Shown piece after piece: positions 2,347 to 20,293 of a stretch of DNA of 64,000 bases. The DNA comes from Mycolicibacterium sp. P9-64 (GTDB lineage Bacteria > Actinomycetota > Actinomycetes > Mycobacteriales > Mycobacteriaceae): assembly GCF_008329605.1 (NCBI RefSeq), contig NZ_NPKO01000001.1:434001-498000 (forward strand), given 5' to 3'. The notes below the pieces were generated by a model that had not been told where the DNA came from, did not search any database, and saw nothing but the letters and a program-made list of their open reading frames with translations. Every line of letters starts with the position of its first letter. Position 1 is the first letter of the stretch. The translations under genes were made by a program, and so were the position numbers.

Positions 2347-2546
2347 GCGACGTCACCGGCTTCGAGCGCCGAGATGAACTGGACGATCGCGGATTCCGGG
2401 ATCAGCCGTCGGCGGCCAATCTTTACGCTGCGGAGCATCCCGCTAGAAATCAACTCATAGCCCTTGGCCCTGCTCACGCACAGCCGTTCAAGGGCCGTAT
2501 CGACTGAGTGCAGGCGGGCTGCCACGGTGTCTGCCGAATCAGGCAT
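2343..2546 (-). CDS. Small excisionase-like helix-turn-helix protein
   Basis: This 67-aa protein starts at the ATG at 2546, which follows a GGAG motif. It contains a MerR/excisionase-type helix-turn-helix: a short N-terminal region, then SRAKGYELISSG and VKIGRRRLIPESAI, the usual Xis-like pattern ending with a Val/Leu-rich helix. Such proteins serve as recombination directionality factors or as activators of the replication operon. It is the first gene of the leftward operon and overlaps prim-pol by 4 nt. It is divergent from the XRE repressor, which probably controls it. The open frame extends upstream to 2738, but that part overlaps the repressor gene and looks non-coding. Confidence 0.72.
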   Translation of the reverse strand: MPDSADTVAARLHSVDTALERLCVSRAKGYELISSGMLRSVKIGRRRLIPESAIVQFISALEAGDVA

Positions 2547-2666
2547 TGCATCTCCGATATTCAGTTGTGTCTTCAGTTGTGGGAAGTGCGAGCTTCCGAA
2601 GTCGCTCACTGACGACACTAGCACGAATGTTCCTGAACGATCACGAACACGCGCTAGTATGTCGTC
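2547..2666. promoter_or_regulatory. Divergent promoter/operator region between excisionase-like gene and repressor
   Basis: This 120-bp gap holds the control region of the element. Visible signals are a direct repeat TTCAGTTGTG at 2560-2569 and 2572-2581 (12-bp period) and a palindrome GTTCCTGAAC at 2629-2638. A -10-like TAGTAT sits at 2655-2660, 7 bp before the repressor ATG at 2667, so that transcript is probably leaderless. The palindrome is a candidate operator for the XRE repressor, and the tandem repeats lie in the excisionase leader. Function is inferred from layout. Confidence 0.5.
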
Positions 2667-4503: not shown

Positions 4504-4556
4504 CAGCGAGGCTCGGAATCGAACGGTTCGAATAGTGTTTGACCTGGTCATCGCGG
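4504..4556. other. Candidate attachment-site flank between integrase and tRNA-Gly
   Basis: This 53-bp spacer contains the palindrome TCGAACGGTTCGA at 4519-4531. It also contains GGAATCGAAC (4515-4524), which is repeated exactly in the T-arm of the adjacent tRNA (4568-4577). Tyrosine integrases of this type usually recombine at the 3' end of a tRNA, so the tRNA end and this spacer together are the likely attR/attL. The matching copy would be outside the window to the left. No second copy of the tRNA end is visible in positions 1-124. Confidence 0.4.
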
Positions 4557-4627
4557 AGCCGATGACGGGAATCGAACCCGCGTATTCAGCTTGGGAAGCT
4601 GATGTTCTGCCATTGAACTACATCGGC
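4557..4627 (-). tRNA. tRNA-Gly (anticodon CCC)
   Basis: Read on the minus strand, the 71-nt sequence folds as a cloverleaf. The acceptor is GCCGATG/CATCGGC, the D-arm GTTC/GAAC, the anticodon stem TCAGC/GCTGA with loop TTCCCAA (anticodon CCC at 4593-4595), and the T-arm GCGGG-TTCGATT-CCCGT. The discriminator base is U, usual for tRNA-Gly, and CCA is not encoded. Its 3' end faces the integrase gene, which makes it the presumed integration target. Confidence 0.93.
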
Positions 4628-4831
4628 CTGACCAGCAGGGCTGGCGAGTACAAAGGCTAACATTCCCACCCGCCCCGGCGGTGGGACCCGGGTACTGGCT
4701 GGCCACCTGCTGGTCCTGCCGGCTTCTTCTTCCCGCTCGAGTTGAGCGGCGCCGTCATCGGGGTCGGTGGTATCGGTAGCGGGCGCATCATCATCCTCAT
4801 CGACCAACTGCACGTCGTCCGACGCGGTCAT
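4586..4831 (-). pseudogene. Possible N-terminal remnant of a membrane-protein gene
   Basis: A minus-strand frame from the ATG at 4831 begins with an acidic stretch (MTASDDVQLVDEDDD, then Glu/Asp-rich), then a basic linker and a short hydrophobic segment VGMLAFVLA. It then runs into the tRNA-Gly sequence. Acidic head plus start of a transmembrane helix resembles the N-terminus of mycobacterial Mce-associated membrane proteins. If so, it has lost everything after residue 60, perhaps during rearrangement at the tRNA. Third-position GC is fairly high but not decisive. It may be chance. Confidence 0.25.
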
Positions 4832-4939
4832 CCCGATCCGTACGTCCTGCATGCCCCGAGTGTGGCCGCGTCCGCTCTGCGGGGACCAGCGCCGGGTGAG
4901 CCCCCGCTGTGAGGCCGGGGCACCCGATACGCTCGTCGC
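4628..4939. other. 312-bp gap between tRNA-Gly and dcd
   Basis: Apart from a weak minus-strand open frame described separately (4586-4831), I see no gene. The region is mixed GC and has no ribosome-binding site upstream of the dcd GTG start, so dcd may have a short or absent leader. Confidence 0.5.
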
Positions 4940-5512
4940 GTGCTGCTCTCCGATCGCGACATTCGGGCCGAGATCGCCGCCGGACGCCTTGGCATCGATC
5001 CGTTCGACGACGGCCTGGTCCAGCCGTCCAGCGTCGACGTCCGACTCGACAACCTGTTCCGGGTCTTCAACAACACCCGCTACACCCACATCGACCCGTC
5101 CATCCGCCAGGACGACCTCACCACCCTGGTCGAGCCGAAGGAGGGGGAGCCGTTCGTGCTGCACCCCGGCGAGTTCGTCCTGGGGTCGACGCTGGAACGC
5201 TGCACTCTGCCCGACGACCTCGCGGGCCGGCTGGAGGGCAAGTCATCACTGGGCCGCCTCGGCCTGCTGACGCACTCCACGGCAGGCTTCATCGACCCGG
5301 GCTTCAGCGGGCACATCACCCTGGAGTTGTCGAACGTCGCCAACCTGCCGATCACGCTGTGGACCGGCATGAAGATCGGCCAGCTCTGCCTGCTGCGGCT
5401 CACCAGCCCCGCCGAGCACCCGTACGGCAGCTCGGCGGCCGGATCGAAGTATCAGGGGCAGCGCGGGCCCACCCCGTCGCGCTCGTATCTGAACTTCATC
5501 AAGTCCAGCTGA
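4940..5512 (+). CDS. dcd: dCTP deaminase (probably bifunctional dCTP deaminase/dUTPase)
   Basis: This 190-aa cytosolic enzyme of pyrimidine deoxynucleotide synthesis deaminates dCTP; the actinobacterial form also hydrolyses the dUTP product to dUMP. The family signature is complete: MLLSDRDI at the N-terminus, [10 protein letters not shown], the catalytic and nucleotide-binding [10 protein letters not shown] (about residues 96-106), then [20 protein letters not shown], and the flexible C-terminal [14 protein letters not shown] that closes over the triphosphate. Length matches the family (about 190 aa). It starts at GTG 4940. In M. tuberculosis dcd (Rv0321) also precedes udgA; here amt and one further gene lie between them. 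Confidence 0.96.
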
Positions 5513-5607
5513 CGCCCGCGCGTTCAGTGAGCGCTGGGGGTGCGGCCCATTCGCAACTCTTGGCCGTCAGCGCTGCCTGAACGCAGCAGGTGGCGTGTGA
5601 GGACTCA

Positions 5608-5663
5608 GAAACACGCACGAAACGCGAAACATGCCTGAAACACGTTCGCCGCATCGCTGAAAC
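5608..5663 (+). promoter_or_regulatory. GlnR-like boxes upstream of amt
   Basis: Five GAAAC motifs occur at 5608, 5619, 5626, 5637 and 5659. Two pairs have the spacing GAAAC-N6-GAAAC (5608-5623 and 5626-5641), which matches the second half of the actinobacterial GlnR box (consensus gTnAC-N6-GaAAC). They end 23-45 bp before the amt ATG. GlnR activates ammonium transporters under nitrogen limitation, so nitrogen control of amt is a reasonable inference. Confidence 0.6.
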
Positions 5664-5685
5664 CGTCGGCCGACATCCTCGCCGA

Positions 5686-6957
5686 ATGCATGAACTCGAT
5701 CCTGCCGCCACCGCCTGGCTGCTGGCCAGCACGGCGCTCGTCCTGCTGATGACGCCGGGGCTGGCCATCTTCTACGGCGGGATGGTCAGGACCACCGGCG
5801 TGCTCAACATGATCATGATGAGCTTCATCTCCATTCCGCTCGTCACGGTGGCGTGGCTGCTCTTCGGTTACACCCTGGCGTTCTCCGGGGACGGCTTCGC
5901 CGGGCTGATCGGCGACCTCACGCACGTCGGTCTGGCCGGCATCAGCCCGTCTACCCTGCACGGTTCGGTGCCCGAGTTGCTGTTCGCCACCTTCCAGCTC
6001 ACCTTCGCTATCATCACCGCCGCCTTGGTCAGTGGCGCCATCGCCGACCGCGCCAAGTTCGCGGCGTGGATGGTCTTCGTTCCGGTCTGGGCCATCGCCG
6101 TGTATTCCGTTGTGGCGCACTGGGTATGGTCGCCCAGCGGCTGGCTGTTCAAGCTCGGCGTCCTCGACTATGCGGGCGGCCTCGTCGTCGAGATCGTCTC
6201 CGGCGCCTCCGCGCTGGCGCTGGCCCTGGTGCTCGGACCGCGCATCGGCTTCAAACAGGACGCGATGCGCCCGCACAATCTGCCCTTCGTGCTGCTCGGC
6301 GTCGGCCTGCTGTGGTTCGGCTGGTTCGGCTTCAACGCGGGCTCGGCGCTGGCCGCCAACGGGACGGCCGCCGCGATCTTCCTCAACACGCTGGTCGCAG
6401 GCTGCCTCGGCATGCTGGGCTGGCTCACCGTCGAGCAGATCCGCGACGGAAGGCCCACGACCTTCGGCGCCGCATCGGGTGTGGTCGCCGGCCTCGTCGC
6501 GATCACCCCGTCCTGCGGCACCGTCAACACCCTCGGCGCCGTCATCGTCGGCCTGCTCGCCGGAATCGTCTGCTCGTTCGCGATCGGCCTGAAGTTCCGC
6601 TTCGGGTTCGACGACTCGCTCGACGTGGTCGGCGTGCACTTCGTCGGCGGCGTGGTCGGGGTGCTGCTGATCGGGCTGCTGGCCACCGAGGTCATGACGG
6701 CAGGCCCGCAAGGCCTCTTCTACGGCGGCGGTCTGGCTCAACTTGGCAAGCAGTGCCTCGGGGCGGTCGTCGTCGCGCTGTACGCGTTCACCGTGTCCTA
6801 CGTATTGGCCAAGCTGATCGACCGCACCATGGGCTTTCGGCTCAGCGCCGAGGACGAGACGACCGGCGTCGACTTCACCCAACACGCCGAGACTGCGTAC
6901 GCCGAGGGCGTCCACGGACACATGCCGATGCGCCGTCCGCGCCCCGAACAAGGCTGA
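5686..6957 (+). CDS. amt: Ammonium transporter, Amt family, with Glu in place of the first twin His
   Basis: This 423-aa polytopic membrane protein imports ammonium. About eleven hydrophobic segments are visible, starting with LLASTALVLLMTPGLAIFYG. Conserved features are GGMVRTTGVLNM, the Trp/Phe-rich pore segment WFGWFGFNAGSAL and the TM10 motif DDSLDVVGVH with the second pore histidine. At the first twin-His position, where bacterial Amt proteins usually read VVH, this one reads LVVEIVSG (about residue 168), so Glu replaces His as in some fungal Mep transporters. I chose the ATG at 5686; the open frame begins at 5590, but that extension covers the GlnR-like boxes. No glnK/glnD follows, so it is a stand-alone amt. 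Confidence 0.93.
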   Translation: MHELDPAATAWLLASTALVLLMTPGLAIFYGGMVRTTGVLNMIMMSFISIPLVTVAWLLFGYTLAFSGDGFAGLIGDLTHVGLAGISPSTLHGSVPELLFATFQLTFAIITAALVSGAIADRAKFAAWMVFVPVWAIAVYSVVAHWVWSPSGWLFKLGVLDYAGGLVVEIVSGASALALALVLGPRIGFKQDAMRPHNLPFVLLGVGLLWFGWFGFNAGSALAANGTAAAIFLNTLVAGCLGMLGWLTVEQIRDGRPTTFGAASGVVAGLVAITPSCGTVNTLGAVIVGLLAGIVCSFAIGLKFRFGFDDSLDVVGVHFVGGVVGVLLIGLLATEVMTAGPQGLFYGGGLAQLGKQCLGAVVVALYAFTVSYVLAKLIDRTMGFRLSAEDETTGVDFTQHAETAYAEGVHGHMPMRRPRPEQG

Positions 6958-7160
6958 TAAGCAGGGCTAACGGAATCGCGGAAGACGTTCGCCGCCAAGC
7001 CGAGTAGGGTCGAAACGCGGGTCGTCGGCCGGATCGTCAGCTAACGGCGCCGGACGTAACGACTGCCCTGGTAGCGACGATGAAACACATGTCGTCGACT
7101 CGCGGTTGAAGGGTCGGATTGTCGACATAGGTAGCGTAGCAAATACTTTGGAGGGGTCCA

Positions 7161-8765
7161 GTGGACATCGTGCTTGGTGTGTCGTTGACACCTAAGACGG
7201 TGCGGATGGTGCTGGTCGAGGGTGAAAAGGGCGACGGCGCGATCGTCGACCACGACGACTTCGACGTATCGTCCACCGACGGGTCAGCAACGTCTGCGGC
7301 GGCCGATCAGGTCGTCGCGGCCGTACTCGGCACCCAGGAGAGCGCGGCCGAGGGCGGACACGTCCTTCGGGCGATCGGCGTGACGTGGAGTGACCGCGTC
7401 GAGGCCGCAGCCTTGCGCGACACCCTGGCCGCTCGCGGCATCAAGGACGTCATGTTGGTGTCCGAGCTGCACGCAGCTGGCGCGCTCGCGCAGGCCGCGG
7501 GTCGCGCGGTCGGATACGAGAGCACCGGGCTGCTGTTCATCGATCGCGACACCGCGACGCTGTCGGTAGTCCGCAGTGACGACGGCTCGATCGTGAAGGT
7601 GCTCAGCCGCAGCCTGCACAGCACCGACGCCATGGCAGTCCTCGCCGACATGGTCGCGGCCGTGGAGGCGCAGGGCACTCCGCCGCAGGGCATGTTCGTC
7701 GTCGGCTCTGGCGTCGACATCGCGTCGGTCAAGACCCATCTCGCCGATCTCGTCGGGCTGCCCGTCAATGCCCCCGAGGAATCGGGTCTGGCGCTGGCGC
7801 GCGGCGCCGCACTCGCAGCGGCCAACGCCCCCGTCTACGACGCGACCACGGCGGGCCTTGCCTACTCGCTGGACCCCGACGGCGCAACGGCCGGGAATCC
7901 GAACGTCGGCCTCGCCAACGCCGAGACTGAGATGGCGGCCGTCGGCGCGCCCGCACCGTTGGCCTGGTCCGACGACCTCGACGACGCCGACTTCGACCTG
8001 CCCGAGCCCGCCGAGGAGGGCCGCAAGCCATTCCTGCTCGTCGGCAGTGCGCTGACGTCGATCTTCGTGCTCGGCGTCGTCGGTCTGGTCATCTCGCTGG
8101 CCGTCAACATCCGGCCCACGGTCGATTCGCGACCCGACGCAGGGCAGGCCGCGATCGTGCCCAGCGCCGTCCCGCCGCCTCCCGCCGCCGTCGAGCAGGC
8201 GCAACCCGCAGCGCCGCCGCCGCCGCCCGCCGAGACCATCAAGGCCCCGATCCCCGTGGTGCAGGAGGCGCCCGCCGCTCCGCCGCGCACGGTGTACGTC
8301 GCACCGCCCGAGGCCGCACCGGCACCCGCTCCCGAGGCGCCGCCGCCGGCACCTGCTCCCGCTGCGCCGCCGCCGGATCCGCCTGCCGCGCCGCCGCCAG
8401 CGGTCGTGCCGGTACCAGTGTTCATCCCGCCGTGGCAGCAGCCGCAGCAGCAGTATCCGCAGTACCCCCAGTATCCGCAGTACCCGCAGCAGCGGCCGCC
8501 GCAGTGGACGCCGCCCTGGCAGCAGCCGTGGCCGCAGCGACCGCCACACGACGATGGCAACGACTGGCCCCAGTCGCCGCAGTACCCGCACTACCCGCAG
8601 CAGCCCCAACAACCAGAGCAGCCGCAGTGGCCGGGCTCCGGTGGTTCCGGCGGGTCGCACGGCTCGGACGGTTCACCCGGCAACAGCGGTGGAGGCGGCG
8701 GTAGTAACTGTTTCCTGATCTTCTGCGCTCCAGCAGGCGGCGGTGGAGGCGGCGGCCGCCACTAG
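7161..8765 (+). CDS. Membrane-anchored actin-fold-like protein with Pro-rich tail (DUF7159/Rv0312-like)
   Basis: This 534-aa protein starts at GTG 7161 after GGAGGGG. Residues 1-265 look like a degenerate actin/Hsp70-type ATPase fold: the start VLGVSLTPKTVRMVLVEG resembles a phosphate-1 loop, followed by GLLFIDRDTATLSVV and the late GMFVVGSGVDI. One transmembrane helix follows (about 289-315, PFLLVGSALTSIFVLGVVGLVISL). The long external tail is rich in Pro/Ala, then Gln-Tyr-Pro repeats (QYPQ, about 430-445), then a Gly/Ser-rich end with two cysteines (NCFLIFC). It resembles M. tuberculosis Rv0312 in layout. The function is unknown. It shares its architecture with the two Hsp70-like proteins of the ini locus. 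Confidence 0.78.
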   Translation: MDIVLGVSLTPKTVRMVLVEGEKGDGAIVDHDDFDVSSTDGSATSAAADQVVAAVLGTQESAAEGGHVLRAIGVTWSDRVEAAALRDTLAARGIKDVMLVSELHAAGALAQAAGRAVGYESTGLLFIDRDTATLSVVRSDDGSIVKVLSRSLHSTDAMAVLADMVAAVEAQGTPPQGMFVVGSGVDIASVKTHLADLVGLPVNAPEESGLALARGAALAAANAPVYDATTAGLAYSLDPDGATAGNPNVGLANAETEMAAVGAPAPLAWSDDLDDADFDLPEPAEEGRKPFLLVGSALTSIFVLGVVGLVISLAVNIRPTVDSRPDAGQAAIVPSAVPPPPAAVEQAQPAAPPPPPAETIKAPIPVVQEAPAAPPRTVYVAPPEAAPAPAPEAPPPAPAPAAPPPDPPAAPPPAVVPVPVFIPPWQQPQQQYPQYPQYPQYPQQRPPQWTPPWQQPWPQRPPHDDGNDWPQSPQYPHYPQQPQQPEQPQWPGSGGSGGSHGSDGSPGNSGGGGGSNCFLIFCAPAGGGGGGGRH

Positions 8766-8838
8766 CGGACACCTGCCGTTGGTCTGGCGCTAAGTGTCCC
8801 GTAGCAGTTAGAACATCGGGGCGGCCTATCAAGGCAGT

Positions 8839-10191
8839 ATGCGATGCACAGTGTTCGGCACGGGCTACCTCGGAGCGACACACGCCGCCGGGATGGCTGA
8901 ACTGGGCCACGAGGTCGTCGGCGTCGACATCGACCCCGGCAAGATCGCCAAGTTGGCGTCGGGCGACATCCCGTTCTACGAGCCAGGGCTGCGAAAAGTC
9001 CTGCGCGACAACCTGGATGCCGGACGACTGCGTTTCACCACGGATTACGACGAGGCCGCCGAGTTCGCCGACGTGCACTTCCTCGGCGTCGGAACCCCGC
9101 AGAAGAAGGGCGAGTACGGCGCCGACCTGCGCCACGTCAACGCCGTGATCGACACCTTGGTGCCCCGGTTGCGCCGCTCGGCGGTGATCGTTGGCAAGTC
9201 CACCGTGCCGGTCGGCACCGCCGCCGAGCTGGCCGAGCGGGCCCGTGGCCTCGCGTCTGCGGGCGTCGACGTCGAGGTGGCCTGGAACCCGGAGTTCCTC
9301 CGCGAGGGCTTCGCCGTGCACGACACCCTGCACCCCGACCGCATCGTGCTTGGCGTGCAACGGGATTCGGTGCGTGCCGAGCCTGCCGTGCGCGAGCTGT
9401 ACGCACCGCTGCTCGGTGAGGACGTGCCGTTCCTGGTCACCGACCTGCAGACCGCGGAGTTGGTGAAGGTCTCGGCGAACGCCTTCCTGGCCACCAAGAT
9501 CTCCTTCATCAACGCGATCTCGGAGGTATGCGAGGCCGTCGACGCCGACGTCACCCTGCTGGCCGATGCGCTCGGTTACGACCCGCGCATCGGGAGGCGA
9601 TTTCTCAACGCCGGACTGGGATTCGGCGGCGGCTGCCTACCGAAGGACATCCGCGCGTTCATGGCCCGCGCCGGTGAACTGGGAGCCAACCACGCACTGA
9701 CGTTCCTGCGCGAGGTGGACAGCATCAACATGCGCAGGCGCACCCGCATGGTCGAGTTGGCCACGAAGGCCTGCGGCGGGTCGCTGCTCGGCGCCAACAT
9801 CGCGGTTCTCGGCGCGGCGTTCAAGCCAGAATCCGACGACGTCCGCGACTCGCCCGCGCTCAACGTGGCAGGCCTGCTGCAACTCAACGGCGCGACCGTC
9901 AACGTGTTCGACCCCAAGGCCATGGAGAACTCGCAGCGCGTCTTCCCCACGCTGAACTACTCGACGTCGGCGATCGATGCCTGCGAGCGCGCCGACGCCG
10001 TGCTGGTGCTCACCGAATGGCAGGAGTTCGTCGACCTCGACCCCGACCAGCTCGCCGGCACCGTGCGCGCGAAAGTCGTTGTCGACGGCCGCAATTGCTT
10101 GGACGTGGACCGCTGGCAGAGGGCCGGCTGGCGCGTCCACGCGCTGGGCCGCAACATCCCCGTGCTTTCCGGGGAGCCCGTCGCGTCGTAA
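8839..10191 (+). CDS. udgA: UDP-glucose 6-dehydrogenase
   Basis: This 450-aa NAD-dependent cytosolic enzyme oxidises UDP-glucose to UDP-glucuronate, a precursor for envelope glycans. The N-terminal Rossmann motif is GTGYLG (residues 7-12). The central domain has ELVKVSANAFLATKISF, and the catalytic Cys lies in GFGGGCLPKDI (about residue 266). The C-terminal UDP-binding domain includes AFKPESDDVRDSPAL. Length and motifs fit the UDP-glucose/GDP-mannose dehydrogenase family. The start ATG at 8839 gives a standard N-terminus. In M. tuberculosis the ortholog is Rv0322, next to dcd. Confidence 0.94.
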   Translation: MRCTVFGTGYLGATHAAGMAELGHEVVGVDIDPGKIAKLASGDIPFYEPGLRKVLRDNLDAGRLRFTTDYDEAAEFADVHFLGVGTPQKKGEYGADLRHVNAVIDTLVPRLRRSAVIVGKSTVPVGTAAELAERARGLASAGVDVEVAWNPEFLREGFAVHDTLHPDRIVLGVQRDSVRAEPAVRELYAPLLGEDVPFLVTDLQTAELVKVSANAFLATKISFINAISEVCEAVDADVTLLADALGYDPRIGRRFLNAGLGFGGGCLPKDIRAFMARAGELGANHALTFLREVDSINMRRRTRMVELATKACGGSLLGANIAVLGAAFKPESDDVRDSPALNVAGLLQLNGATVNVFDPKAMENSQRVFPTLNYSTSAIDACERADAVLVLTEWQEFVDLDPDQLAGTVRAKVVVDGRNCLDVDRWQRAGWRVHALGRNIPVLSGEPVAS

Positions 10192-10301
10192 ATTGGTGGT
10201 GGTCCCCACCCGAGCGCGGACCGCACCGGGCCGAATGACCGTGCGCCCACCCTTTACCAAACCTTGACCGTGCATTGAATCGCCGCACGGACCATGGCTA
10301 G

Positions 10302-13300
10302 GTGATTACGCTTCAACAGGTGGAACTGGGGGTTCTGGGGCCGCTCCAGGTCCGGCAGTTTGGGCTGCCGGTCGCGATCCCCGGCGCCAAACCTCGTTCC
10401 ATCCTCACGATGCTGGGGCTGCACGGCGGTTCCGTCGTGTCGGCCGACGTGCTCCTGGAACTCCTCTGGGGCGACGATCCGCCGCGCACCGCGGCCAAGG
10501 CCTTGCAGACCCACATCTCCTCTCTGCGTCGCACGCTTGGCGACGGTTTCGTGTTGACGCAGGGAACGGGCTGGACCCTGACGACGACCGAGATCGATGC
10601 CTCGCGGTACAAGGCGGCGGCCAAGATGGGTCGCGAGGCCATCGCCTCGGGGGACACCAGCCAAGCGGTGGCGCGTTTCGACGAGGCCCTGGCGCTGTGG
10701 CGTGGGATCCCCGAACTTCCCGACGGCTCGCGGGGCACATCCGAGAAGACGCGCTGGATCGAAGGCCATGCCGCCCTGGTGGAGGACCGGGCCGACGCTC
10801 TTCTCGCAACGGGTCGCGCCGCCGAGATCATCGGCGAGTTGGAAGCCGCGGTGAGCGACGCACCGTTGCGTGAGCGGCGTTGGGGGCAGTTGATGCTCGC
10901 CCTCTATCGCGCGGGCAGACAAGGTGAAGCCCTTGGCGCGTTCCAGCGTGCCCGGTTACTGCTGGCCGACGAGCTGGGCGTCGACCCCGGGCCGGATCTT
11001 CGCCGACTCGAGGCCGCAATCGTTGCGCAAGACGATGCATTGGAAATGCCTGTGTCGCAGCAACTTCAATCCGCCACGCGGGCAGTGACCTTCCTGCTCA
11101 CCGACATCGAGGGTTCGACTGCAGCTTGGGAAGCCGACGCCGACGCCATGGCGGCGGCGCTGGCCAGACACGACGAAGTCGTCAAACAGGTCGTCACGTC
11201 TCGGGGCGGGCGGCTCATCAAGACGCGCGGCGAGGGGGACGCGACGTTCTCTGTCTTCGACCGGCCGTCGGCAGCAGCCGCGGCAGCGATCGATCTGCAA
11301 GAAGCCGTCCGTCACGAGCCGTGGGCACTGGCGGAGCCCATGCGCATCCGTGTGGCGCTGCACACCGGTGAGGTCGAGCTTCGCGACGGCGACTACTTCG
11401 GTCGGGCGGTCAACCGCGCCGCCCGGCTGCGATCACTGGCGGCCGGTGGCCAGACCCTCTGCTCGGGCGCGACAGCCGAACTCGTCATCGACTCACTTTC
11501 CGATGACGTCGTGCTGGCCGACCTCGGGATGCACCAGCTTCGCAACCTGGCACGCCCGGAGCACGTCTTCGAGCTCCGATTGGAGACCGCCGACGAATCC
11601 CACGCCATCACAGCTGACACACCCATCGAGCGGCCCGCGCTGCCGCCGCTGTTGACCGTGCCGGGGCCGTTCGTCGGGCGCGGCCTCGAGATCGAGCGAC
11701 TTCTGTCCACGTGGCACACCGCGGTTGACGGCGGCGCGCACGCGGTGCTGATCGCGGGGGAACCCGGCGTCGGCAAGACGCGTCTGGCCGGTGAATGGTC
11801 CCAACACGCCTACGAGCAAGGCGCGGTTGTCCTCTACGGCCGATGCGACGAGGACCTCGGTGCCCCCTACCAGCCGTTCGCCGAAGCCCTGCGCTTGCTG
11901 ATTCCGAGCCTCGGTGCGAATCGGCTGCGAGGACTGCGCGGTGTCGAAGCGCTCCTCTCACTGGTTCCCGGTCTCACCGACGTCCTGCCCGACCTCGCCG
12001 CGCCGACTCGCGCCGACCCGGACACCGAGCGCTACGCACTGTTCGATGCCGTCGTCGCGGCGCTTGGAGTCGCCTCCGCCAGCGCACCGGTTGTCCTGAT
12101 TCTCGACGACCTGCACTGGGCGGCGAAGCCCACGTTGCTTCTCCTGCGTCACCTTCTGCGCTTCGGCGAGCACGCTCGCGTGCAAATCGTCGGCACCTAC
12201 CGCAGCACCGACCTCGACCGGTCGCACCCTCTGGCGGCGATGCTCGCCGACCTTCACCGCGACGGCTCAGCCACTCGCCTTCAGCTCAGCGGTCTCGACC
12301 AGGGCGACGTGCGTGAATATCTCGCCGAAGCCGGCTACGACGACGAGGAACTCGCCCGCGCGCTGGCAACGGTCACCGGTGGCAATCCGTTCTTCCTCAT
12401 CGAGACGCTGCGCCACGTGGACGAGAGCGGTGGACGCTGGGATCCGAGCACCCTGCCGCAAGGGGTTCGGGAGGCCGTGAGCCGCAGGCTTTCTTGCCTT
12501 TCGGCGGAGACGAACAAGGCACTTGCTGCGGCCGCGGTCGTCGGTAGCCATTTTGCGCTGGCGCTGGTCGAAAGGGTGGTCGGCGACGACCTCATCGATG
12601 CCTTCGACGAAGCCTCGAAGGCGGGCATCGTCATCGAAGAGCCTGGCGGTCGTTACCGGTTCAACCACGCCATCGTCCGGCAGTCGCTGCTCGCCGAGCT
12701 GGCGTCCGTGCGGCGTATGCGGCTGCATCAGAAGATCGCCGGAACACTCGAGACGGAACCGGGCGCAGATGACGAGCTACTGGCCGAATTGGCCTACCAC
12801 TACTTCGAATGTGCGTGGGCGGGCAACGCGGCCAAGGCTGTCGAGTACTGCAGACGCGCCGCGGACCAGGCAATGGCACGCCTGGCGTACGAAGGCGCCG
12901 CGGACCTCTACGGCAAGGCGTGGCATGCACTGGAGGAGATTGACGACGAGCTGCCCGACCGCGACGACCAGCAAGCCGAGCTGTTGGTCGCTCGCTGTGA
13001 GGCACTGCTGGCCGCGGGTGACGTGGCTTCGGCGGCGGGCGCAGTCTCTCAGTTGCAAGAGGCCGCAGGCGATTCCGACCGACTCGCAGCCTGGGGCGCC
13101 TGTTTCGACGGCCAACTCTCGATGCTCACCGATCCCGAGCGCTTGGACGAGATCGAATCCGCGGTGAGCGCGGCCGCCGAGACGCTGGCCGGACTGGACG
13201 ATGCGGCGGGGGAGGCGAAGGCGCATACGGTCCGGGCCGGATGCCTGGCCCGCCTCGGGCGCATCGGCGATTGCGAAACCGCCTTGGACCACGCTCTGAC

Positions 13301-16300
13301 CGCGGCGCGACGTGCGCATGACCACCGCCGCGTGAACGCCGTGCTCGCGCAGGCGCCACTGGCGGCGCTGTGGGGACCCAATCCGGTTCCGCGAGCGGGC
13401 GGGCGGTGCCTCGATGTCGTGCGGCTGCTGCGCATCACCACGGGATCTCCTGTGGTGGAGGCGACGTCGACTCGGTGTCAGGGTGTGCTGGACGCGTTTC
13501 GCGGCCGTGCCGCCGCCGGCCGTAGCCTGCTCGACTCCGCCAGACGGACGCTCACTGAACTCGGCATGCGGCACGCACTGCTCGAGGTCGACCAGTTTGC
13601 CGGCATCCTCGAGTTGGTCGCCGACGATCCTGCTGCTGCAGAGCCCCATTTGAGGCGGGCCTACAACGGCTTTCGTCGCATGGGCCTCGAGGCCGACACC
13701 GCCGAAACCGCCGCGCTGCTGGCTCGGGCCTGTCTGGCACTCGACATGGACGCCGAAGCCGACGAATTATGCACGGAGAGCGAGTGTCTCGCAGGCCATG
13801 CATTGAAGGCGTCGATCGCATGGCGGACGGTTCGGGCACAGTTGCTGGCACGCAGCGGCGCACACGAGGACGCTCGCCGGATCGCCGAAGAGGCCGTGGC
13901 ACTGGCCCGAAGCACCGATGCCTTGGTCGATCATGGCGATGCCTGCCTGGCGCTGGCGACGGTGTTGGGCGCCGCCGGCGACACCGACGGAGCGCAGGCC
14001 GCGGCCGAACAGGCCATGCGGCTCTACGAACTGAAAGGGGCTGCGGCACTTGCTGAGAAGGCCCGCAATATTAGCGGTGCACGTGACGTTCCGTCTGGGT
14101 CGATTCCACCCGAAGAGCCGAGTGTCGAGCTGGAAAATGCATGTGTCCGGGCACTCGTCCAGCTGCACTCTGCTGTCGATTGTGAGGCCTGGGACGAGCT
14201 CGAGCACGTGCTCGCGTCCGATATCTCCATGCGGAGCCACCGAAAGGTCGTTGGCTTCCCTCAGCTCACCCTTGGGCCGGAGGAATGGACACGCGAAGCG
14301 AAGCGTCTCCGCGAGTCGGGTTTCGTCCGGCACCGCCACGTGGTTGTCGCCGTCCGGGGCGCGCGCCTCGCCCTTACCCGAACGCAGGTGAACACTGCAG
14401 ACGCGAGTGCAGGCGCACCACAGGACGAGCTGCTCCAGCTCATTGGCCTCGACAACGACGGTCGGATCGCTATGGACGTGTACTTCGATCTCGACGACGT
14501 CGACGCCGCGATCGCCGAGCTCGACGCCGCGCACGCCCGGCTCGATGAGGGACAACAGCGGCCGCGGCTCGAGAACGCCGCGAGTCGGGGCGATGCCCGA
14601 TTCAATGTGCTGTTTTCGGACAGGCGCGTCGATGAGATTGGCGCGCTGTTCATCGACGACCTCCTGATCGATGACCGGCGCCGAGGACTTCACCGGGTGG
14701 GAATCGGCCGCGCCAATGAGCTAGCGGAGGTACGGGTGCTCGTCGATCTCGGTATCGAGACCACGGCGTTGAATGTGGTTGCAGTCCGCGGAGACCGCCT
14801 CGCACTCGTGCATACCCGGGCCGAGACCAGCGGTCCTCAAGCGTTCAACGGCGAATTTCTCCGGCTCGCTGAGGTGGACTCCGACGAGCGGCTCGCGGCG
14901 TGCGTCGTGTTCGATCTCGACGACCTTGACGCCGCGATGGCGGAGCTCGATGCCCGATACCGTGCCGGAGAAGCGGCGCCGCACCGCGACACGTGGTCGG
15001 TCATCGCCGAGGCCTACGCCGCCGTCAGGCGAGGTGAGCTGCCACCGACGACGCAGGACTGGGTGAACGTCGACCACCGGCGCACGGCGGTGGCAATCGC
15101 GCCCGGTGACCTGAGCGGATACCTCCAGGCCACGTGGGAACTCGACCAAGACGTCCGACCGTCCATCGAGGTCGTGCATCGGCTGACCAGCCGCGGAGCG
15201 GTCGTCACCTACACGGCGCGCGGAACGACGGCAGCGGGCTTCGACGGCGAGTGGCGCGAGATCAGCCTGTCGATGGTCGACGGTGGCCTGATCAGCCGCT
15301 GCGAGCTGTTCGACGAGGCAGACCTCGACGCCGCGATCGCGAAATTCGAACAGCTCAGCCGGCCGGCACCACGGCTGGAAAACGCGGCAAGCCAAGTGGC
15401 AGAGCGCTTTTACGCGTGCTTCGCGGCCCGCGACTGGGCCGCCTTGGCGGAGCTCCTCTCCGACGGGAGTCTCATCGATGACCGGCGACGGGTCGTGAAT
15501 GCCGGGGTCAGACATGGTCGAGATGCTGGAATCGCGGACATGCGAGCCGCCGCGGAACTCGGAACCAGGAGCATGGCGTCAACGGTGCTCGCCACCCGCG
15601 GTGAGCACCTAGCTCTCATTCGAAACCGTGCCACGAACCGCGGCGACCGGCCCGAGGAATTCGCTACCGAGGTCGTGTGCATTGTCGACGCCGACGCCAA
15701 CAACCGGATCTCAGCGAGTGTCCTGTTCGACCCCGACGACATCGACGCCGCGTTCGACGAGCTCGATGCCCGGTACCTCGCAGGCGAAGCGGCCGACGAT
15801 GCCCACACGTGGTCGGTCGTCGCGGGGGCCTATGCCGCACTCAGTCGACAGGAGATGCCGCCGACGGCACCGAATTGGGTGGACATCGACCGGCGACGGG
15901 TCGTAAATATCGAGGCGGGGGGCGTGAAGGCATATCTCCGTGCCATGTGGGACGCCACCTCGAACGTGAGCATGCGCGTCAAGACTGTGCATCGTCTGAG
16001 CGATCTCGGAGCGGTCGTGACCCATGAGTCGCACGCGACATCGCAAGAGGGCCTCGATGTCGAGTGGCAGGACATCAACCTTCTGACTGTCGACGACGAC
16101 CTGATCAGCCGCTGCGAGCTGTATGACGAGGCTGACCTCGACGCCGCGCTCGCGAGGTTCGAACAACTCAATCGACCAGAGCCGCACCTGGAAAACGCGG
16201 CAAGCCGAGTCAGCGACCGCTTGTTCGTATCGTTCGCAACTCGCGACTGGACAACCATGTCGGCGCTGCTCGCCGACGACTTTTACGGCGACGACCGCCG

Positions 16301-18617
16301 TCAGGTAACGGATGTGGGCCTGCACGGCCGGGATGCCGTGATCGAAAGTTACCGGACAGCCGCCGAATTCGGGATCCCGGGTGCAACGACAACCGTCCTT
16401 GCGACCCGTGCGGAACGCCTCGTTCTCGCTGGCGTTCAATACTCTCTCAGCAACGAGGACCCCGACGCCTTCCACATCGATCTTCTCCAGGTCGTCGAGA
16501 TCGACGCCGACGAGCGGATCGCGGGCATAGTCACATTCGACATCGACGACGTTGACGCCGCGTTTGCGGAACTCGACGCGCGCTACCTCGCCGGTGAAGC
16601 CGCACCGCATGCTCACCCGTGGTCGGTGATCGCCAAGGGCTACGCCGGGTTCAACCGGCGCGAGCTCCTCGCGACGACGCCGGACTGGGTAAACGTCGAC
16701 CATCGTCGCGGAGCAGCGTTCGCGCCCGGCGACATGATCGCGTATCTCCACGCTGCCTGGGACGACTCGCCTGACACCACGATCTACATCGCGGCGGTGC
16801 ATCGACTGACCAACCTCGGAGGGGTCGTCACACATGTCGCGCGTGGCATCTCGCAAGAGGGCTTCGACGCGGAGTGGCGGGACATTTCCATTCTGACGGT
16901 GGAAGGCGATGCGATCAGCCGCTCCGAGCTGTTCGACGAGGCAGACCTCGACGCCGCGCTTGCCAGATTTGAGGAACTGCGCCCGGCGCCGCGGTTGGAA
17001 AACGCGGCGAGCCGAGTAGACGACCGCTGCGAGATCTATTTTGCCGCCCGCGATTGGGACGCGATGGCGGGGATGATGGCCGAAGGCATCTTGGTTGACG
17101 ATCGTCGCAGCGTGGTGAATGCCGGTCTTCGGCGCGGTCGCGATGCCGAGATCGCAAGCATGCGGGCGACCGCCGACCTCGGTGTAAGAAAAGTGACGTC
17201 AGATGTCATTGCCACCCGTGGCCAGCGACTCACCTTGAGTCGCAACCGCTTTGCAGGTCGAGACCAGCGGCCTGAGGCGTTCCATTCCGCGATTCTCTGC
17301 ATTATCGAGATCGATGCCGACGGGCGTATCGTCGCACGCGTCACGTTCGACATTGACGACATCGACGCCGCATTCGAGGAGCTCGATGCCAGGTACGTCG
17401 TCGGCGAAGCGGCGGCCGACGCGCACACGTGGTCCGTCGTCGCACGGGGCCTTGCCGCATTCAACAGGCGCGAACTGCCAGGGTTCACGCCCGATTCGGT
17501 AAACATCGATCACCGTCGAGCGAGAGGGTTCGCACCCGGCGACGTGACCGCATACATAGGTGCCACCTGGGCTCTCGCACCGGACGTCAACGCCTACGCC
17601 GAGGCCGTGCATCGGCTGAGCAACCTTGGAGCGGTCTGGACCCACGCAGTCAGCGGGACTTCGCTAGACGGTTTCGACGCCGAATGGCGGGAAATCTGCC
17701 TTGTGATCGTCGAAGGCGACCTGATCAACCGCATCGAGATGTTCGAAGGGGAGGACATCGACGCCGCACTCGCGAGGTTCGACGAGCTCACTCGACCGGC
17801 GCGGCCGCTGGAGAACGTGGCAAGCCGAATGTACTACCGCTTCAACGGGTACCTCATGGCTCGCGACTGGGACGCCATGGCGGCGATGGTCGCCGACGAC
17901 ATTTGCAATGACGATCGTCGTCGGGTGGTAAGCAGCGGAGTGCTACGCGGGCGTGATGCCCAGACCGCGAATTTGCGGGCCGTGGTCGACGTCGGGGTCA
18001 AGAACTTCGAATCTGTCGTCATCGCGACCCGAGGAGAGCGCGTCGCGCTCATGCGTACCTGCGTATCGGGCGGGCAACTGCCCGAGGCGTTCGGTCTCGA
18101 GTTGTTGACCATCATCGAAATCGACAGCGACAACCGGATTTCGTCGGGCATCCAGTTCGATCTCGACGACATCGACGAAGCGTTCGCCGAGCTCGACGCC
18201 CGGTACCTCGCCGGTGAAGCGGCCGACCACTCCCACACGTGGTCGCTCATTGCGCGCGCCTCCGCCGCTTTCAACCGACACGTGATGCCCCCGACGACGC
18301 AGGACTGGGTCAACATCGATCACCGCAAAGTGACAGCGTTCGCGCCCGGCGACATGACTTCGTACATGCGTGCCACGTTTGCCGTTGCGCCGGACATCAC
18401 GTTCTACGTCGAGGCAGTGCACCGACTAACGCGCCTCGGCGCGGTCTTCACCCAACCGGGGCGTGGGGTCTCGGACGAGGGTTTCGAGGCCGAGTGGCGC
18501 GACATCATCCTGATGTCGATCGAAGGCGACCAGTTCAACCGCTGCGAAGTGTTCGACGAGGCAGACCTCGACGCCGCACTGGCGCGGTTCGACGAGCTCG
18601 ATCGGCAGGCACCGTAG
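10302..18617 (+). CDS. Giant SARP regulator: DNA-binding head, nucleotide cyclase, ATPase and eleven NTF2-like domains
   Basis: This is a single 2771-aa frame without interruption, starting at GTG 10302. Domains in order: OmpR-type winged helix (about 1-95), bacterial transcriptional activator domain (95-240), class III adenylate/guanylate cyclase (255-425), AAA/STAND ATPase with Walker A GEPGVGKTRL (about 487) and Walker B LILDDLHW, TPR-like helices (about 830-1260), then SnoaL/NTF2-like repeats (1277-2771). The cyclase keeps all six catalytic positions: Asp in TDIEGST, Lys and Asp in IKTRGEGD, and D, N and R in DYFGRAVNRAAR. Cyclase-ATPase regulators such as Rv0386, Rv1358 and Rv2488c are known in mycobacteria, but normally carry a LuxR tail. 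Here the DNA-binding domain is N-terminal and the tail is a repeat array. The ligand is unknown; NTF2-like cups often bind small hydrophobic molecules. Confidence 0.85.
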   Translation: MITLQQVELGVLGPLQVRQFGLPVAIPGAKPRSILTMLGLHGGSVVSADVLLELLWGDDPPRTAAKALQTHISSLRRTLGDGFVLTQGTGWTLTTTEIDASRYKAAAKMGREAIASGDTSQAVARFDEALALWRGIPELPDGSRGTSEKTRWIEGHAALVEDRADALLATGRAAEIIGELEAAVSDAPLRERRWGQLMLALYRAGRQGEALGAFQRARLLLADELGVDPGPDLRRLEAAIVAQDDALEMPVSQQLQSATRAVTFLLTDIEGSTAAWEADADAMAAALARHDEVVKQVVTSRGGRLIKTRGEGDATFSVFDRPSAAAAAAIDLQEAVRHEPWALAEPMRIRVALHTGEVELRDGDYFGRAVNRAARLRSLAAGGQTLCSGATAELVIDSLSDDVVLADLGMHQLRNLARPEHVFELRLETADESHAITADTPIERPALPPLLTVPGPFVGRGLEIERLLSTWHTAVDGGAHAVLIAGEPGVGKTRLAGEWSQHAYEQGAVVLYGRCDEDLGAPYQPFAEALRLLIPSLGANRLRGLRGVEALLSLVPGLTDVLPDLAAPTRADPDTERYALFDAVVAALGVASASAPVVLILDDLHWAAKPTLLLLRHLLRFGEHARVQIVGTYRSTDLDRSHPLAAMLADLHRDGSATRLQLSGLDQGDVREYLAEAGYDDEELARALATVTGGNPFFLIETLRHVDESGGRWDPSTLPQGVREAVSRRLSCLSAETNKALAAAAVVGSHFALALVERVVGDDLIDAFDEASKAGIVIEEPGGRYRFNHAIVRQSLLAELASVRRMRLHQKIAGTLETEPGADDELLAELAYHYFECAWAGNAAKAVEYCRRAADQAMARLAYEGAADLYGKAWHALEEIDDELPDRDDQQAELLVARCEALLAAGDVASAAGAVSQLQEAAGDSDRLAAWGACFDGQLSMLTDPERLDEIESAVSAAAETLAGLDDAAGEAKAHTVRAGCLARLGRIGDCETALDHALTAARRAHDHRRVNAVLAQAPLAALWGPNPVPRAGGRCLDVVRLLRITTGSPVVEATSTRCQGVLDAFRGRAAAGRSLLDSARRTLTELGMRHALLEVDQFAGILELVADDPAAAEPHLRRAYNGFRRMGLEADTAETAALLARACLALDMDAEADELCTESECLAGHALKASIAWRTVRAQLLARSGAHEDARRIAEEAVALARSTDALVDHGDACLALATVLGAAGDTDGAQAAAEQAMRLYELKGAAALAEKARNISGARDVPSGSIPPEEPSVELENACVRALVQLHSAVDCEAWDELEHVLASDISMRSHRKVVGFPQLTLGPEEWTREAKRLRESGFVRHRHVVVAVRGARLALTRTQVNTADASAGAPQDELLQLIGLDNDGRIAMDVYFDLDDVDAAIAELDAAHARLDEGQQRPRLENAASRGDARFNVLFSDRRVDEIGALFIDDLLIDDRRRGLHRVGIGRANELAEVRVLVDLGIETTALNVVAVRGDRLALVHTRAETSGPQAFNGEFLRLAEVDSDERLAACVVFDLDDLDAAMAELDARYRAGEAAPHRDTWSVIAEAYAAVRRGELPPTTQDWVNVDHRRTAVAIAPGDLSGYLQATWELDQDVRPSIEVVHRLTSRGAVVTYTARGTTAAGFDGEWREISLSMVDGGLISRCELFDEADLDAAIAKFEQLSRPAPRLENAASQVAERFYACFAARDWAALAELLSDGSLIDDRRRVVNAGVRHGRDAGIADMRAAAELGTRSMASTVLATRGEHLALIRNRATNRGDRPEEFATEVVCIVDADANNRISASVLFDPDDIDAAFDELDARYLAGEAADDAHTWSVVAGAYAALSRQEMPPTAPNWVDIDRRRVVNIEAGGVKAYLRAMWDATSNVSMRVKTVHRLSDLGAVVTHESHATSQEGLDVEWQDINLLTVDDDLISRCELYDEADLDAALARFEQLNRPEPHLENAASRVSDRLFVSFATRDWTTMSALLADDFYGDDRRQVTDVGLHGRDAVIESYRTAAEFGIPGATTTVLATRAERLVLAGVQYSLSNEDPDAFHIDLLQVVEIDADERIAGIVTFDIDDVDAAFAELDARYLAGEAAPHAHPWSVIAKGYAGFNRRELLATTPDWVNVDHRRGAAFAPGDMIAYLHAAWDDSPDTTIYIAAVHRLTNLGGVVTHVARGISQEGFDAEWRDISILTVEGDAISRSELFDEADLDAALARFEELRPAPRLENAASRVDDRCEIYFAARDWDAMAGMMAEGILVDDRRSVVNAGLRRGRDAEIASMRATADLGVRKVTSDVIATRGQRLTLSRNRFAGRDQRPEAFHSAILCIIEIDADGRIVARVTFDIDDIDAAFEELDARYVVGEAAADAHTWSVVARGLAAFNRRELPGFTPDSVNIDHRRARGFAPGDVTAYIGATWALAPDVNAYAEAVHRLSNLGAVWTHAVSGTSLDGFDAEWREICLVIVEGDLINRIEMFEGEDIDAALARFDELTRPARPLENVASRMYYRFNGYLMARDWDAMAAMVADDICNDDRRRVVSSGVLRGRDAQTANLRAVVDVGVKNFESVVIATRGERVALMRTCVSGGQLPEAFGLELLTIIEIDSDNRISSGIQFDLDDIDEAFAELDARYLAGEAADHSHTWSLIARASAAFNRHVMPPTTQDWVNIDHRKVTAFAPGDMTSYMRATFAVAPDITFYVEAVHRLTRLGAVFTQPGRGVSDEGFEAEWRDIILMSIEGDQFNRCEVFDEADLDAALARFDELDRQAP
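14130..18617 (+). repeat. Protein-coding tandem repeat: one half unit plus five ~269/271-residue units
   Basis: Within the giant gene, the motif LENA(A/C) or LENVAS recurs at 14130, 14568, 15375, 16188, 16995 and 17808 (residues 1277, 1423, 1692, 1963, 2232, 2503). From the second copy onward the spacings are 269, 271, 269, 271 and 269 residues to the last codon. Each unit has an A half (LENAAS...DDRRRV...VLATRGERLAL...DDIDAAF.ELDARYLAGEAA) and a B half (HTWSVIA...NRRE...DHRR...EAVHRL..LGAVVTH...EWRDI...DEADLDAALARF). The first copy has only the A half, giving eleven domains. The units differ at many positions, so the duplications are not recent. Confidence 0.9.
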
Positions 18618-18641
18618 GGCTGGCGTCGTAACGTCGACGTC

Positions 18642-18968
18642 ATGACGGTCTACGCCCTGAACCTGTTCGACGTCGCCAACCGCGACGAATACCTGGCCTA
18701 CTCCAAGCGGTCGGTCGCCGAGGTCGCCAGGTACGGCGGCCGGGTGGTAGCACTCGGCAAGTTCCGCGAAGCCATCCTCGGCGACGTCGAACCCCGTCAG
18801 GTGCTGATCTTGGTCGAGTGGCCCGACAAGGAAGCGTTCAACGGGTACTGCAACGACCCGACGCTGGCTGACCTGCACGCCCACCGGGAGAACGGCACGG
18901 GTGCCTACGTGTGGCAGCTCTTCGATCGGTTGGACGATCTTCGTCCGGTGCTTAAGCTCGACAGATGA
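18642..18968 (+). CDS. DUF1330 family protein
   Basis: This 108-aa cytosolic protein is a ferredoxin-like alpha/beta fold of the DUF1330 / dimeric alpha-beta barrel group. It starts YALNLFDVANRDEYLAYSK, followed by YGGRVVALGKF, VLILVEWPDKEAFNGYCNDP and an unusual C-terminal extension with an LRPVLKLDR end. The biochemical role of DUF1330 is not established. Its stop overlaps the start of the following P450 gene by 4 nt (ATGA), so the two are co-translated, and a link to P450 substrate metabolism is possible. Confidence 0.85.
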   Translation: MTVYALNLFDVANRDEYLAYSKRSVAEVARYGGRVVALGKFREAILGDVEPRQVLILVEWPDKEAFNGYCNDPTLADLHAHRENGTGAYVWQLFDRLDDLRPVLKLDR

Positions 18969-20293
18969 GGGCAACGGTTCGACAGCGTCTGCACTGGCTG
19001 GCCCTGCACGGGGTCATCCGCGGGCTGGCGTCCTACGGCGCCAAGCGCGGTGAGATGCAGGGCAGGCTGATCGCCGATCTGACGGTGCGCGCCGACCCCG
19101 GTGGTTTCGCCGACGAACTGCGGGCGCATGGCGAACTCGTCCGAGGCCGGGCCGCATGGCTCACCACCGACCACGCGCTCGCGCATCAGCTGCTGCGCTC
19201 CGACGACTTCGCCGTGACGGCAATCGGCAAGACCCTGCCGGGCCCGCTTGGCTGGCTGGAGACCAAGACCGCGGTCAAGGGTCGGCTGCATCCGCTGCTT
19301 CCGCCGTCGCTGCTCTCCGTCGAACCGCCAGAACACACCCGCTACCGCAAGACGGTGTCGTCGGTGTTCACCACCAGAGCCGTTGCCGCACTGCGGGAAC
19401 GGGTGAGGCAGGCCGCGGCCGCACTGATCGACGACCTGGAAAGCGGAACCGACGGCTCCGTCGTCGACATCGTCGATCGGTACTGCTCGCAGCTGCCTGT
19501 CACCGTCATCGGCGACATCATCGGCGTGCCGGACGACGAACGGCCCCGCATCCTCGAGTTCGGCGAGCTGGCTGCGCCCAGCCTCGACATCGGCTTGCCG
19601 TTCGATCAGTACTTGCGCGTCGAGCGCGGCCTCGACGGGTTCAACGAATGGCTGGCCAACCACATCGACCGCCTGCGGCGCGCCCCCGGTGACGACTTGA
19701 TGAGCGAGCTCATCGAAGCCAGTGAGGGGGGTACGCGGCTCAACGACGAGGAACTGCGTGCCACGGCCGGTCTGGTGCTTGCCGCGGGGTTCGAGACCAC
19801 GGTGAACCTGCTCGGCAGTGGTATCCGGATCCTGCTCGAGCATCCCGACCAACTCGCGATGCTGCTGGACGATCCCGAGCTGTGGCCGGGTGCGGTGGAG
19901 GAGATCCTTCGGCTCGAGTCGCCGGTTCAGCTGAGCGCCAGGATCGCGCGCCACGACGTCGAGGTCGCGGGCCGGACCGTCGCGGGCGGTGAGCTCGTCA
20001 TCCTCTACCTCGCAGGAGCCAACCGCGACCCCAAGGTGTTCGTTGACCCGCACCGCTTCGACATCACCCGCGACAACGCGGGCAAGCACCTGTCGTTCTC
20101 CGGGGGTAGGCACTTCTGCCTCGGTGCCGCACTGGCCCGTGCGGAAGGGGAAGTCGGCCTTCGTACGTTCTTCGAGCGCTACCCCGACGCTGCACTCGCC
20201 GGAGCGGGCAGCCGTCGCGATACCAGGGTGTTGCGGGGCTGGGCGTCCCTACCGATCGCGCTTGGCAAGGCGCGCAGCGCGGTACGTTCGTAG
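18965..20293 (+). CDS. Cytochrome P450
   Basis: This 442-aa soluble bacterial P450 monooxygenase shows the I-helix oxygen-activation motif AAGFETT, the K-helix EEILRLESP and the heme loop FSGGRHFCLG with the cysteine ligand at about residue 385. The N-terminus lacks a membrane anchor but has a short hydrophobic stretch. It is co-translated with the DUF1330 gene (4-nt overlap) and followed 1 nt after its stop codon by the GTG start of a mycothiol-dependent DinB-like gene. No ferredoxin or ferredoxin reductase is adjacent, so electrons must come from elsewhere. The substrate is unknown and I do not assign a CYP number. Confidence 0.93.
   Translation: MRATVRQRLHWLALHGVIRGLASYGAKRGEMQGRLIADLTVRADPGGFADELRAHGELVRGRAAWLTTDHALAHQLLRSDDFAVTAIGKTLPGPLGWLETKTAVKGRLHPLLPPSLLSVEPPEHTRYRKTVSSVFTTRAVAALRERVRQAAAALIDDLESGTDGSVVDIVDRYCSQLPVTVIGDIIGVPDDERPRILEFGELAAPSLDIGLPFDQYLRVERGLDGFNEWLANHIDRLRRAPGDDLMSELIEASEGGTRLNDEELRATAGLVLAAGFETTVNLLGSGIRILLEHPDQLAMLLDDPELWPGAVEEILRLESPVQLSARIARHDVEVAGRTVAGGELVILYLAGANRDPKVFVDPHRFDITRDNAGKHLSFSGGRHFCLGAALARAEGEVGLRTFFERYPDAALAGAGSRRDTRVLRGWASLPIALGKARSAVRS

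Follow-up and report, generated by a model that had tools for sequence, protein, structure and literature searches.

The question raised by this locus is what a single mycobacterial protein would do with a DNA-binding head, a nucleotide cyclase, an ATPase and a long array of small repeated domains, and whether this combination is genuine in the first place. The window, by which we mean the whole stretch of 64,000 nucleotides analysed here, had been predicted from its letters to contain one frame of 2771 residues that joins a SARP head, a class III cyclase, a STAND ATPase and eleven NTF2-like units, a frameshift in the assembly being named as a threat to that reading. The gene is located as follows:

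10302..18617, + strand: whole regulator gene, 2771 codons, an open frame with a GTG start and a TAG stop

The frame was borne out as a single reading of 2771 codons ending in TAG, with relatives that have the same closed frame, and a whole-genome search placed the array units of the 7.27-Mb genome in one place and one frame with no internal stops. Among the array-bearing ORFs of related contigs (L015-L081), 44 of 74 are closed frames that start with a whole head, which argues against a chance frameshift fusion in the window, and the longest exact direct DNA repeat within the array, located near the end of B units (see below), is just 34 bp long, which makes misassembly unlikely. An assembly artefact or frameshift was rejected for the window gene on the basis of the single open frame, the closed frames of the relatives and the shortness of the repeats. 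The database copy of the gene (P0046) has 2765 amino acids, implying a start at GTG 10320. Elsewhere the gene was seen split into two frames in L017, L028, L029, L030, L063, L067, L070 and L080, so that either copies are frequently broken or a gene of this length is prone to sequencing errors.

The domains preceding the array are the following:

10302..11036, + strand: SARP head, winged helix plus BTAD, residues 1-245 (Pfam; EmbR and AfsR structures)
11064..11591, + strand: class III nucleotide cyclase domain, residues 255-430 (Pfam, invariant residues, hairpin alignment)
11649..12701, + strand: STAND-type ATPase, residues 450-800, with Walker A GEPGVGKT and Walker B LILDDLHW (Pfam, invariant motifs)
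12789..14087, + strand: helical/TPR-like part, residues 830-1262 (weak TPR_12 match)

Pfam identified Trans_reg_C at residues 30-81 (32.4 bits; cut-off 26.2) and BTAD at residues 98-240 (129.2 bits; cut-off 22.1), and the protein thus has the N-terminal OmpR-type winged helix plus BTAD by which a SARP is recognised. Guanylate_cyc (PF00211) matched at residues 259-394 (33.1 bits; cut-off 21.9) and AAA_16 at residues 456-628 (102 bits), and, as judged by its sequence, the P-loop ATPase with Walker A and B motifs and adjoining helical repeats would be of the STAND type. Conservation was assessed in 90 heads, namely those of the window and of 89 relatives, the row of the window's own copy (P0046) having been dropped from 91. 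The Walker A and Walker B/DDLHW motifs were invariant in all 90 heads, and so were D268, K307, D313, D364, N371 and R375 of the cyclase, the six catalytic residues that had been claimed for this domain. The accompanying claim of an intact metal site is upheld with a reservation: the cyclase hairpin KTRGEGD is two residues longer than that of the solved cyclases Ma1120 and 3mr7, the HMMER alignment puts E311, not D313, opposite the metal Asp of solved cyclases, and E311 and D313 are both invariant. Owing to the longer hairpin, the second metal acid could be E311 or D313 and its assignment is uncertain, and intact residues are in themselves no proof of cyclase activity. Across the whole genome of the window (G000) there were 15 class III cyclase domain matches, several of them in frames of 885-1078 residues, and the motif check at eight other cyclase loci of this genome gave two that were readable.

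Comparison with known regulators places this protein with the large SARP/STAND regulators without making it one of those already named. With AfsR of Streptomyces, a large SARP with the order SARP-NOD-arm-TPR in the portion of PMC10936776 available to us, it has in common the order of SARP head, STAND ATPase and TPR part. It differs from AfsR, which is without a cyclase and without an NTF2 tail, in carrying both, and identity with AfsR was rejected at an NCBIfam equivalog score of 146.8 against a cut-off of 1430. With Mclx of Mycobacterium (cyclase-AAA-LuxR) it shares a cyclase joined to an ATPase within a mycobacterial regulator. Mclx, however, binds DNA through a C-terminal LuxR domain whereas the window protein would do so through its N-terminal SARP head, and an NTF2 tail is not described for Mclx in the available part of the source (PMC4452763). 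Identity with Mclx was likewise rejected, as no LuxR family matched the window protein at E <= 1 and its C-terminus is array unit B5, and the predicted contrast with the cyclase-ATPase-LuxR proteins of mycobacteria, as these appear in that part of the source, was thereby sustained. A literature search for this domain order or for the array returned no description among the matches listed; a cyclase survey from 2004 (PMC2447327) contains the term BTAD twice according to the literature index, and a SARP-cyclase fusion may therefore already have been mentioned there.

The part of the protein after residue 1276 consists of eleven units of two types, A (six units) and B (five units), arranged as A0-A1-B1-A2-B2-A3-B3-A4-B4-A5-B5, that is A(AB)5, as delimited by unit profiles:

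14130..14561, + strand: unit A0, the leading A
14562..15371, + strand: pair A1-B1
15372..16181, + strand: pair A2-B2
16182..16988, + strand: pair A3-B3, also modelled
16989..17798, + strand: pair A4-B4, the folds of A4 and B4 also modelled
17799..18614, + strand: pair A5-B5

Identity is 26-60% among the A units of the window and 46-61% among its B units. Pfam SnoaL_2 matches five stretches of the tail, while for the B units Pfam gave no family clearly of their own. The prediction that SnoaL/NTF2 profiles would recognise the tail was hence correct for A by SnoaL_2 and not clearly so for B by Pfam, though a B unit modelled alone came out as NTF2/SnoaL. Structure prediction followed by structure comparison gave both A and B units the ketosteroid-isomerase/SnoaL (NTF2) fold, with models that resemble a mycobacterial protein with bound steroid as well as designed steroid-binding proteins. 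Membership of the NTF2/SnoaL group thus follows from SnoaL_2 matches and models for A, and from the model for B, and together with the SARP head and the STAND ATPase the eleven NTF2-like units were recovered as originally predicted. A sequence search of the PDB with the A-B profile gave no match at E <= 1, so the unit fold, predicted to be a steroid/polyketide-type NTF2 fold in both unit types, rests on the models. The two-domain structure matches superpose poorly (rmsd 12-13 A), and the model of an A-B pair has a pTM of 0.58.

The predicted fold is common to each unit and to ketosteroid isomerases, Rv0760c, SnoaL-type cyclases and the Lsd19/MonBI epoxide hydrolases. These named proteins are free-standing, with one or two domains, and not regulator tails, and their identity to the units is 7-22% among the matches listed. 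Two genes that may belong to the same operon lie downstream:

18642..18968, + strand: DUF1330 protein, 24 nt past the regulator gene, predicted operon partner
18965..20293, + strand: cytochrome P450, its start overlapping the DUF1330 stop, predicted operon partner

Both are found downstream of the gene in the window and in four relatives (L034, L036, L051 and L075). An MDMPI gene was observed downstream of the P450, and the upstream neighbour, at 7161-8765 of the window, encodes a DUF7159 protein that is 94% identical over 379 residues in L075. The tail could in principle be a set of tethered isomerases, epoxide hydrolases or cyclases, that is a catalytic assembly instead of a sensor, as the folds nearest to its units belong to enzymes, tandem NTF2 epoxide hydrolases among them, and a P450 and a DUF1330 protein follow the gene. 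A fold match by itself shows no function, however, and the fusion with SARP, cyclase and STAND parts suggests signalling, for which reasons we consider tethered enzymes improbable.

Beyond the first reading of the sequence, a rule for the order of units that runs through the family, the exchange of units, and a predicted operator directed at the gene itself are new, as is the modelling of both unit types as the ketosteroid-isomerase/SnoaL fold. The proposed search for proteins with the same domain order turned up not a singleton but a large Mycobacterium family (the genus being taken, by inference, in its broad sense): 7981 candidates were scored and gave 1001 relatives, of which the best 120, the window's copy among them, were studied. 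One or more leading A units followed by (AB)n describe the tails of 120 of 121 sequences (the best 120 relatives plus the window), cut ends aside, the exception being P0079. When more than 1000 residues precede the first unit (91 sequences), there is one leading extra A in 69, two in 21 and four in 1. All 74 array-bearing ORFs of contigs L015-L081 follow the same rule, whereas the same profiles show departures in four (L107, L115, L118 and L119) of 20 arrays from further stretches, a set in which L100, L108 and L110 duplicate genes counted before. The number of pairs per frame varies from 2 to 15 in 137 distinct proteins, the smallest being a frameshift-split copy, and the longest frame, in one strain, has 7523 residues with 22 pair matches. 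The family is present in 124 and absent from 173 of the 297 Mycobacterium genomes in the genus sample; a smaller sample gave 15 of 37 for the same genus and 0 of 24 for other genera of the order, and a phylum sample gave 6 of 396 genomes and 1 of 236 genera. Members also occur in metagenome bins labelled differently (P0030, P0079 and BP_149). One of these bins (BP_149, 3.2 Mb, labelled Actinomycetota) has in L021 a frame of 6817 residues of units cut by the contig start, with 37 unit matches in total, and L056 carries at 1678-18908 two complete family regulator genes, head to tail. A search with one A-B pair against 72,556 plasmid records gave no match.

Behind a conserved head, the units are replaced piecewise between relatives. 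Across 137 distinct proteins, head identity never falls below 75.7% and has a median of 83.8%. In the syntenic locus L075, the SARP, cyclase, ATPase and TPR parts are respectively 91, 89, 93 and 91% identical to those of the window, and the neighbouring upstream dehydrogenase, DUF1330 protein and P450 are 96, 88 and 94% identical. Units B3, B4, A5 and B5 are 84-92% identical between these loci, while the other seven are only 48-58% identical. Synonymous differences per site (pS) amount to 0.32 in the head, to a mean of 0.17 in the four similar units and to a mean of 0.53 in the other seven, so that the dissimilar units appear replaced instead of fast-evolving, and the common ancestor of the similar ones would be more recent than that of the head. 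Gradual fast evolution of the tail was for this reason rejected in the L075 and the L055/L081 comparisons. The retained units look to be under purifying selection (pN 0.04-0.09 and pS 0.11-0.23 against L075). Compared with L036, the sole unit above 75% has a pS of 0.44 against 0.41 in the head, and the signal of recent exchange is hence missing in some pairs.

Units behind near-identical heads were compared as well. In ten pairs with heads 97-99% identical, 198 aligned units divided into 121 at >= 80%, 12 at 70-80% and 65 below 70%, and in 31 pairs with heads 95-97% identical, 526 aligned units divided into 218, 72 and 236, respectively; these pairs are not independent, one gene is counted twice, and three of the sequences are named M. 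colombiense. The unit comparisons come mostly from draft assemblies or database proteins, and some involve large contigs. L114 (a 6.09-Mb contig) and P0095 have identical heads over 1250 residues, with a partner at >= 83% for 12 of the 26 L114 units; L115 (6.2-Mb contig) and L146, with heads 96.8% identical, have 21 units each, 18 at 82-99% and three at 55, 52 and 74%; and L114 and L132, both single large contigs, have heads 92.8% identical, and their tails, with 26 and 19 units, form a mosaic. Running counter to exchange, L038/P0106 (heads 99.1%) and L060/P0068 (heads 99.4%, one pair missing) show near-identical units only.

The position of the breakpoints and the origin of the replacing units were also considered. 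Inferred breakpoints fell within the last 24 positions of A in 123 of 269 cases (46%, against 29% simulated with uniform breakpoints) and within the last 31 positions of B in 107 of 169 (63% against 31%), with no excess at unit starts (A, 45/269 or 17% against 16%; B, 17/169 or 10% against 16%). A preference for unit ends is suggestive only, because conserved ends draw breakpoint calls towards them and the real data are more complex than the simulation. Where replaced units were traced, in four pairs, relatives at 51-92% identity were present in other arrays. Recent copying from one array to another within a genome was not seen: among 1252 units, pairs matching over 200 bp with a DNA identity of 90% or more numbered 0 between different arrays of one genome, 2 inside one array and 71 between genomes, with genomes grouped by contig title, a grouping that joins 16 of 67 loci. 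Given the relatives in other arrays and the lack of recent copies within a genome, recombination with incoming DNA is, we infer, likelier than copying within the genome. Internal units found their best match in another protein in 673 of 692 cases for A and 661 of 681 for B, a count biased by the far larger number of units outside any one protein; with this bias in mind, the array does not appear to be built from recent local copies, and homogenisation within arrays is not supported.

Variation of this kind would also be expected if the tail were a weakly constrained scaffold or spacer turning over neutrally through recombination between similar unit ends, where DNA sequence is shared and most breakpoints lie, and the lack of the gene in those 173 genomes of the genus, with relics in some, agrees with such a view. 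The alternation and the open frames nevertheless survive the changes, the retained units bear the marks of purifying selection, and the best matches in other proteins, larger pool notwithstanding, speak against recent local copies; neutral turnover is in our view quite improbable, and we rank it below the tethered enzymes. The third alternative, an immune-type receptor, would have the units recognise phage or competitor molecules, the STAND part switch, and cAMP or the SARP output act as an alarm, with unit exchange as an arms race. It draws on the resemblance to fungal NLRs, which likewise join a fixed effector and a STAND part to a polymorphic tail of repeats (WD, ANK or TPR) and whose repeats show length polymorphism and positive selection in the portion of PMC4986451 available, just as the present family shows a variable tail, polymorphism of unit number and unit exchange. 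According to that same portion, however, the fungal repeats are highly alike within each gene and evolve in concert, whereas the window units are 26-61% identical and whole units differ between relatives; repeat evolution of the fungal type, with near-identical repeats in one gene, was accordingly rejected. Moreover, no PADLOC family matched at E <= 0.001, in a library that covers described systems only, in the structures matched, the NTF2 fold serves as a pocket for small molecules, and the retained units look purified. An immune role thus seems unlikely, even if we place it first among these three alternatives. The reading we prefer, in which the tail is an exchangeable sensor, draws further on the promoter of the gene:

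10252..10281, + strand: triple direct repeat with an 11-bp period, hexamers at 10253, 10264 and 10275; predicted SARP operator
10290..10295, + strand: -10-like hexamer GACCAT, 8 bp past the 3' repeat

The first NTG (GTG 10302) comes 6 nt past GACCAT, for which a leaderless start is predicted. The repeat stands upstream of 67 of the 68 SARP-starting ORFs with readable upstream DNA and of all 67 family head ORFs, which are 64 distinct genes after removing three second copies; the remaining ORF (L058, 15148-16527) has a SARP match only and no array. In a slightly different pool, with the window counted from GTG 10320, the distance from the repeat to the head match downstream is 67 or 68 bp in all 68 scored. 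Repeat scores were 18/18 in 51, 17 in 14, 16 in one and 15 in one, compared with a maximum of 15, reached in 0.4%, among 1360 shuffled sequences. A GAYNAT hexamer follows exactly 8 bp past the repeat in 57 of 68; the distance from the hexamer position to the first NTG is 5-7 nt, likewise in 57 of 68. The rule given for SARP promoters in the available part of PMC10936776 is a spacing of 11 or 22 bp between direct repeats, with 8 bp separating the 3' repeat from the -10, and the likeness to AfsR extends to the promoter, with its 11-bp direct repeats placed 8 bp ahead of the -10; the family promoters have this layout in their sequence, and the triple repeat is predicted to be a SARP-type operator on the gene's own promoter.

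The element occurs once in the window genome at <= 3 mismatches. Over the 297 genus genomes, array and element occur together in 122, array only in 2, element only in 8 and neither in 165 (Fisher p 1e-70, uncorrected for shared ancestry), and the reversed repeat pattern gave none among the matches listed. The eight element-only genomes comprise two heads cut by a contig end (L123, L125), three relics (L126, L127, L128) and three loci where a gene piece was searched for and not found (L121, L122, L124), and a second element site in G316 precedes a further relic (L129). Survival of the operator beside gene relics was thus observed in L126, L127, L128 and L129, and several relic loci, as well as L121 and L122, have a related downstream gene (LYLLADSQLLFW motif) that might now be driven by the operator. 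Since the element tracks the gene across genomes, self-regulation is the simplest reading, and the conserved, putatively self-directed operator seen ahead of all readable head ORFs is new.

Taking these results together, we propose, with a probability of about 0.55, that the protein is a self-regulating one-component sensor in which a conserved SARP/cyclase/ATPase head is controlled by an exchangeable ligand-binding tail of eleven predicted NTF2 units. Sequence shows the A(AB)n rule, the open frame with its domains, the replacement of units and the promoter repeat, models predict the fold, and the remaining steps would be as follows. Small hydrophobic molecules would be sensed by the pockets of the tail, and filled pockets would change the state of the ATPase and lift autoinhibition, as ATP does in AfsR. 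According to the available part of PMC10936776, the ATPase and TPR parts of AfsR keep it inactive until ATP frees it, with oligomerisation and DNA binding unchanged; a switch in oligomerisation is thus unsupported by the nearest model, and by analogy the NTF2 tail might set an AfsR-like inhibited or released state according to its ligands. The SARP head would then bind the triple repeat and turn on the leaderless transcript, here including DUF1330 and P450. As the operator is unique in the genome, the SARP output would be local, confined to the regulator itself and DUF1330/P450, and the cyclase would make cAMP as the global output, relaying the signal beyond this locus throughout the cell. The original interpretation is thus supported in part: its reading of the domains holds, while binding of many ligands, cAMP synthesis and activation of transcription by this regulator are each plausible. 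Exchange of units would re-tune ligand recognition. More tentatively, as a possibility that we favour less, the protein may be a counterpart of diversifying receptors, in which single NTF2 modules are exchanged at conserved ends between lineages while the head drives its own operon and broadcasts cAMP.

If this proposal is true, Mycobacterium would possess a bacterial transcription regulator whose output is constant but whose many swappable ligand pockets vary from one close relative to another. Such a protein would be a candidate input class for the many mycobacterial cyclases, and, with a single operator and promoter and with A-B modules that can be taken apart, it makes ligand screening and tests of the proposal concrete.
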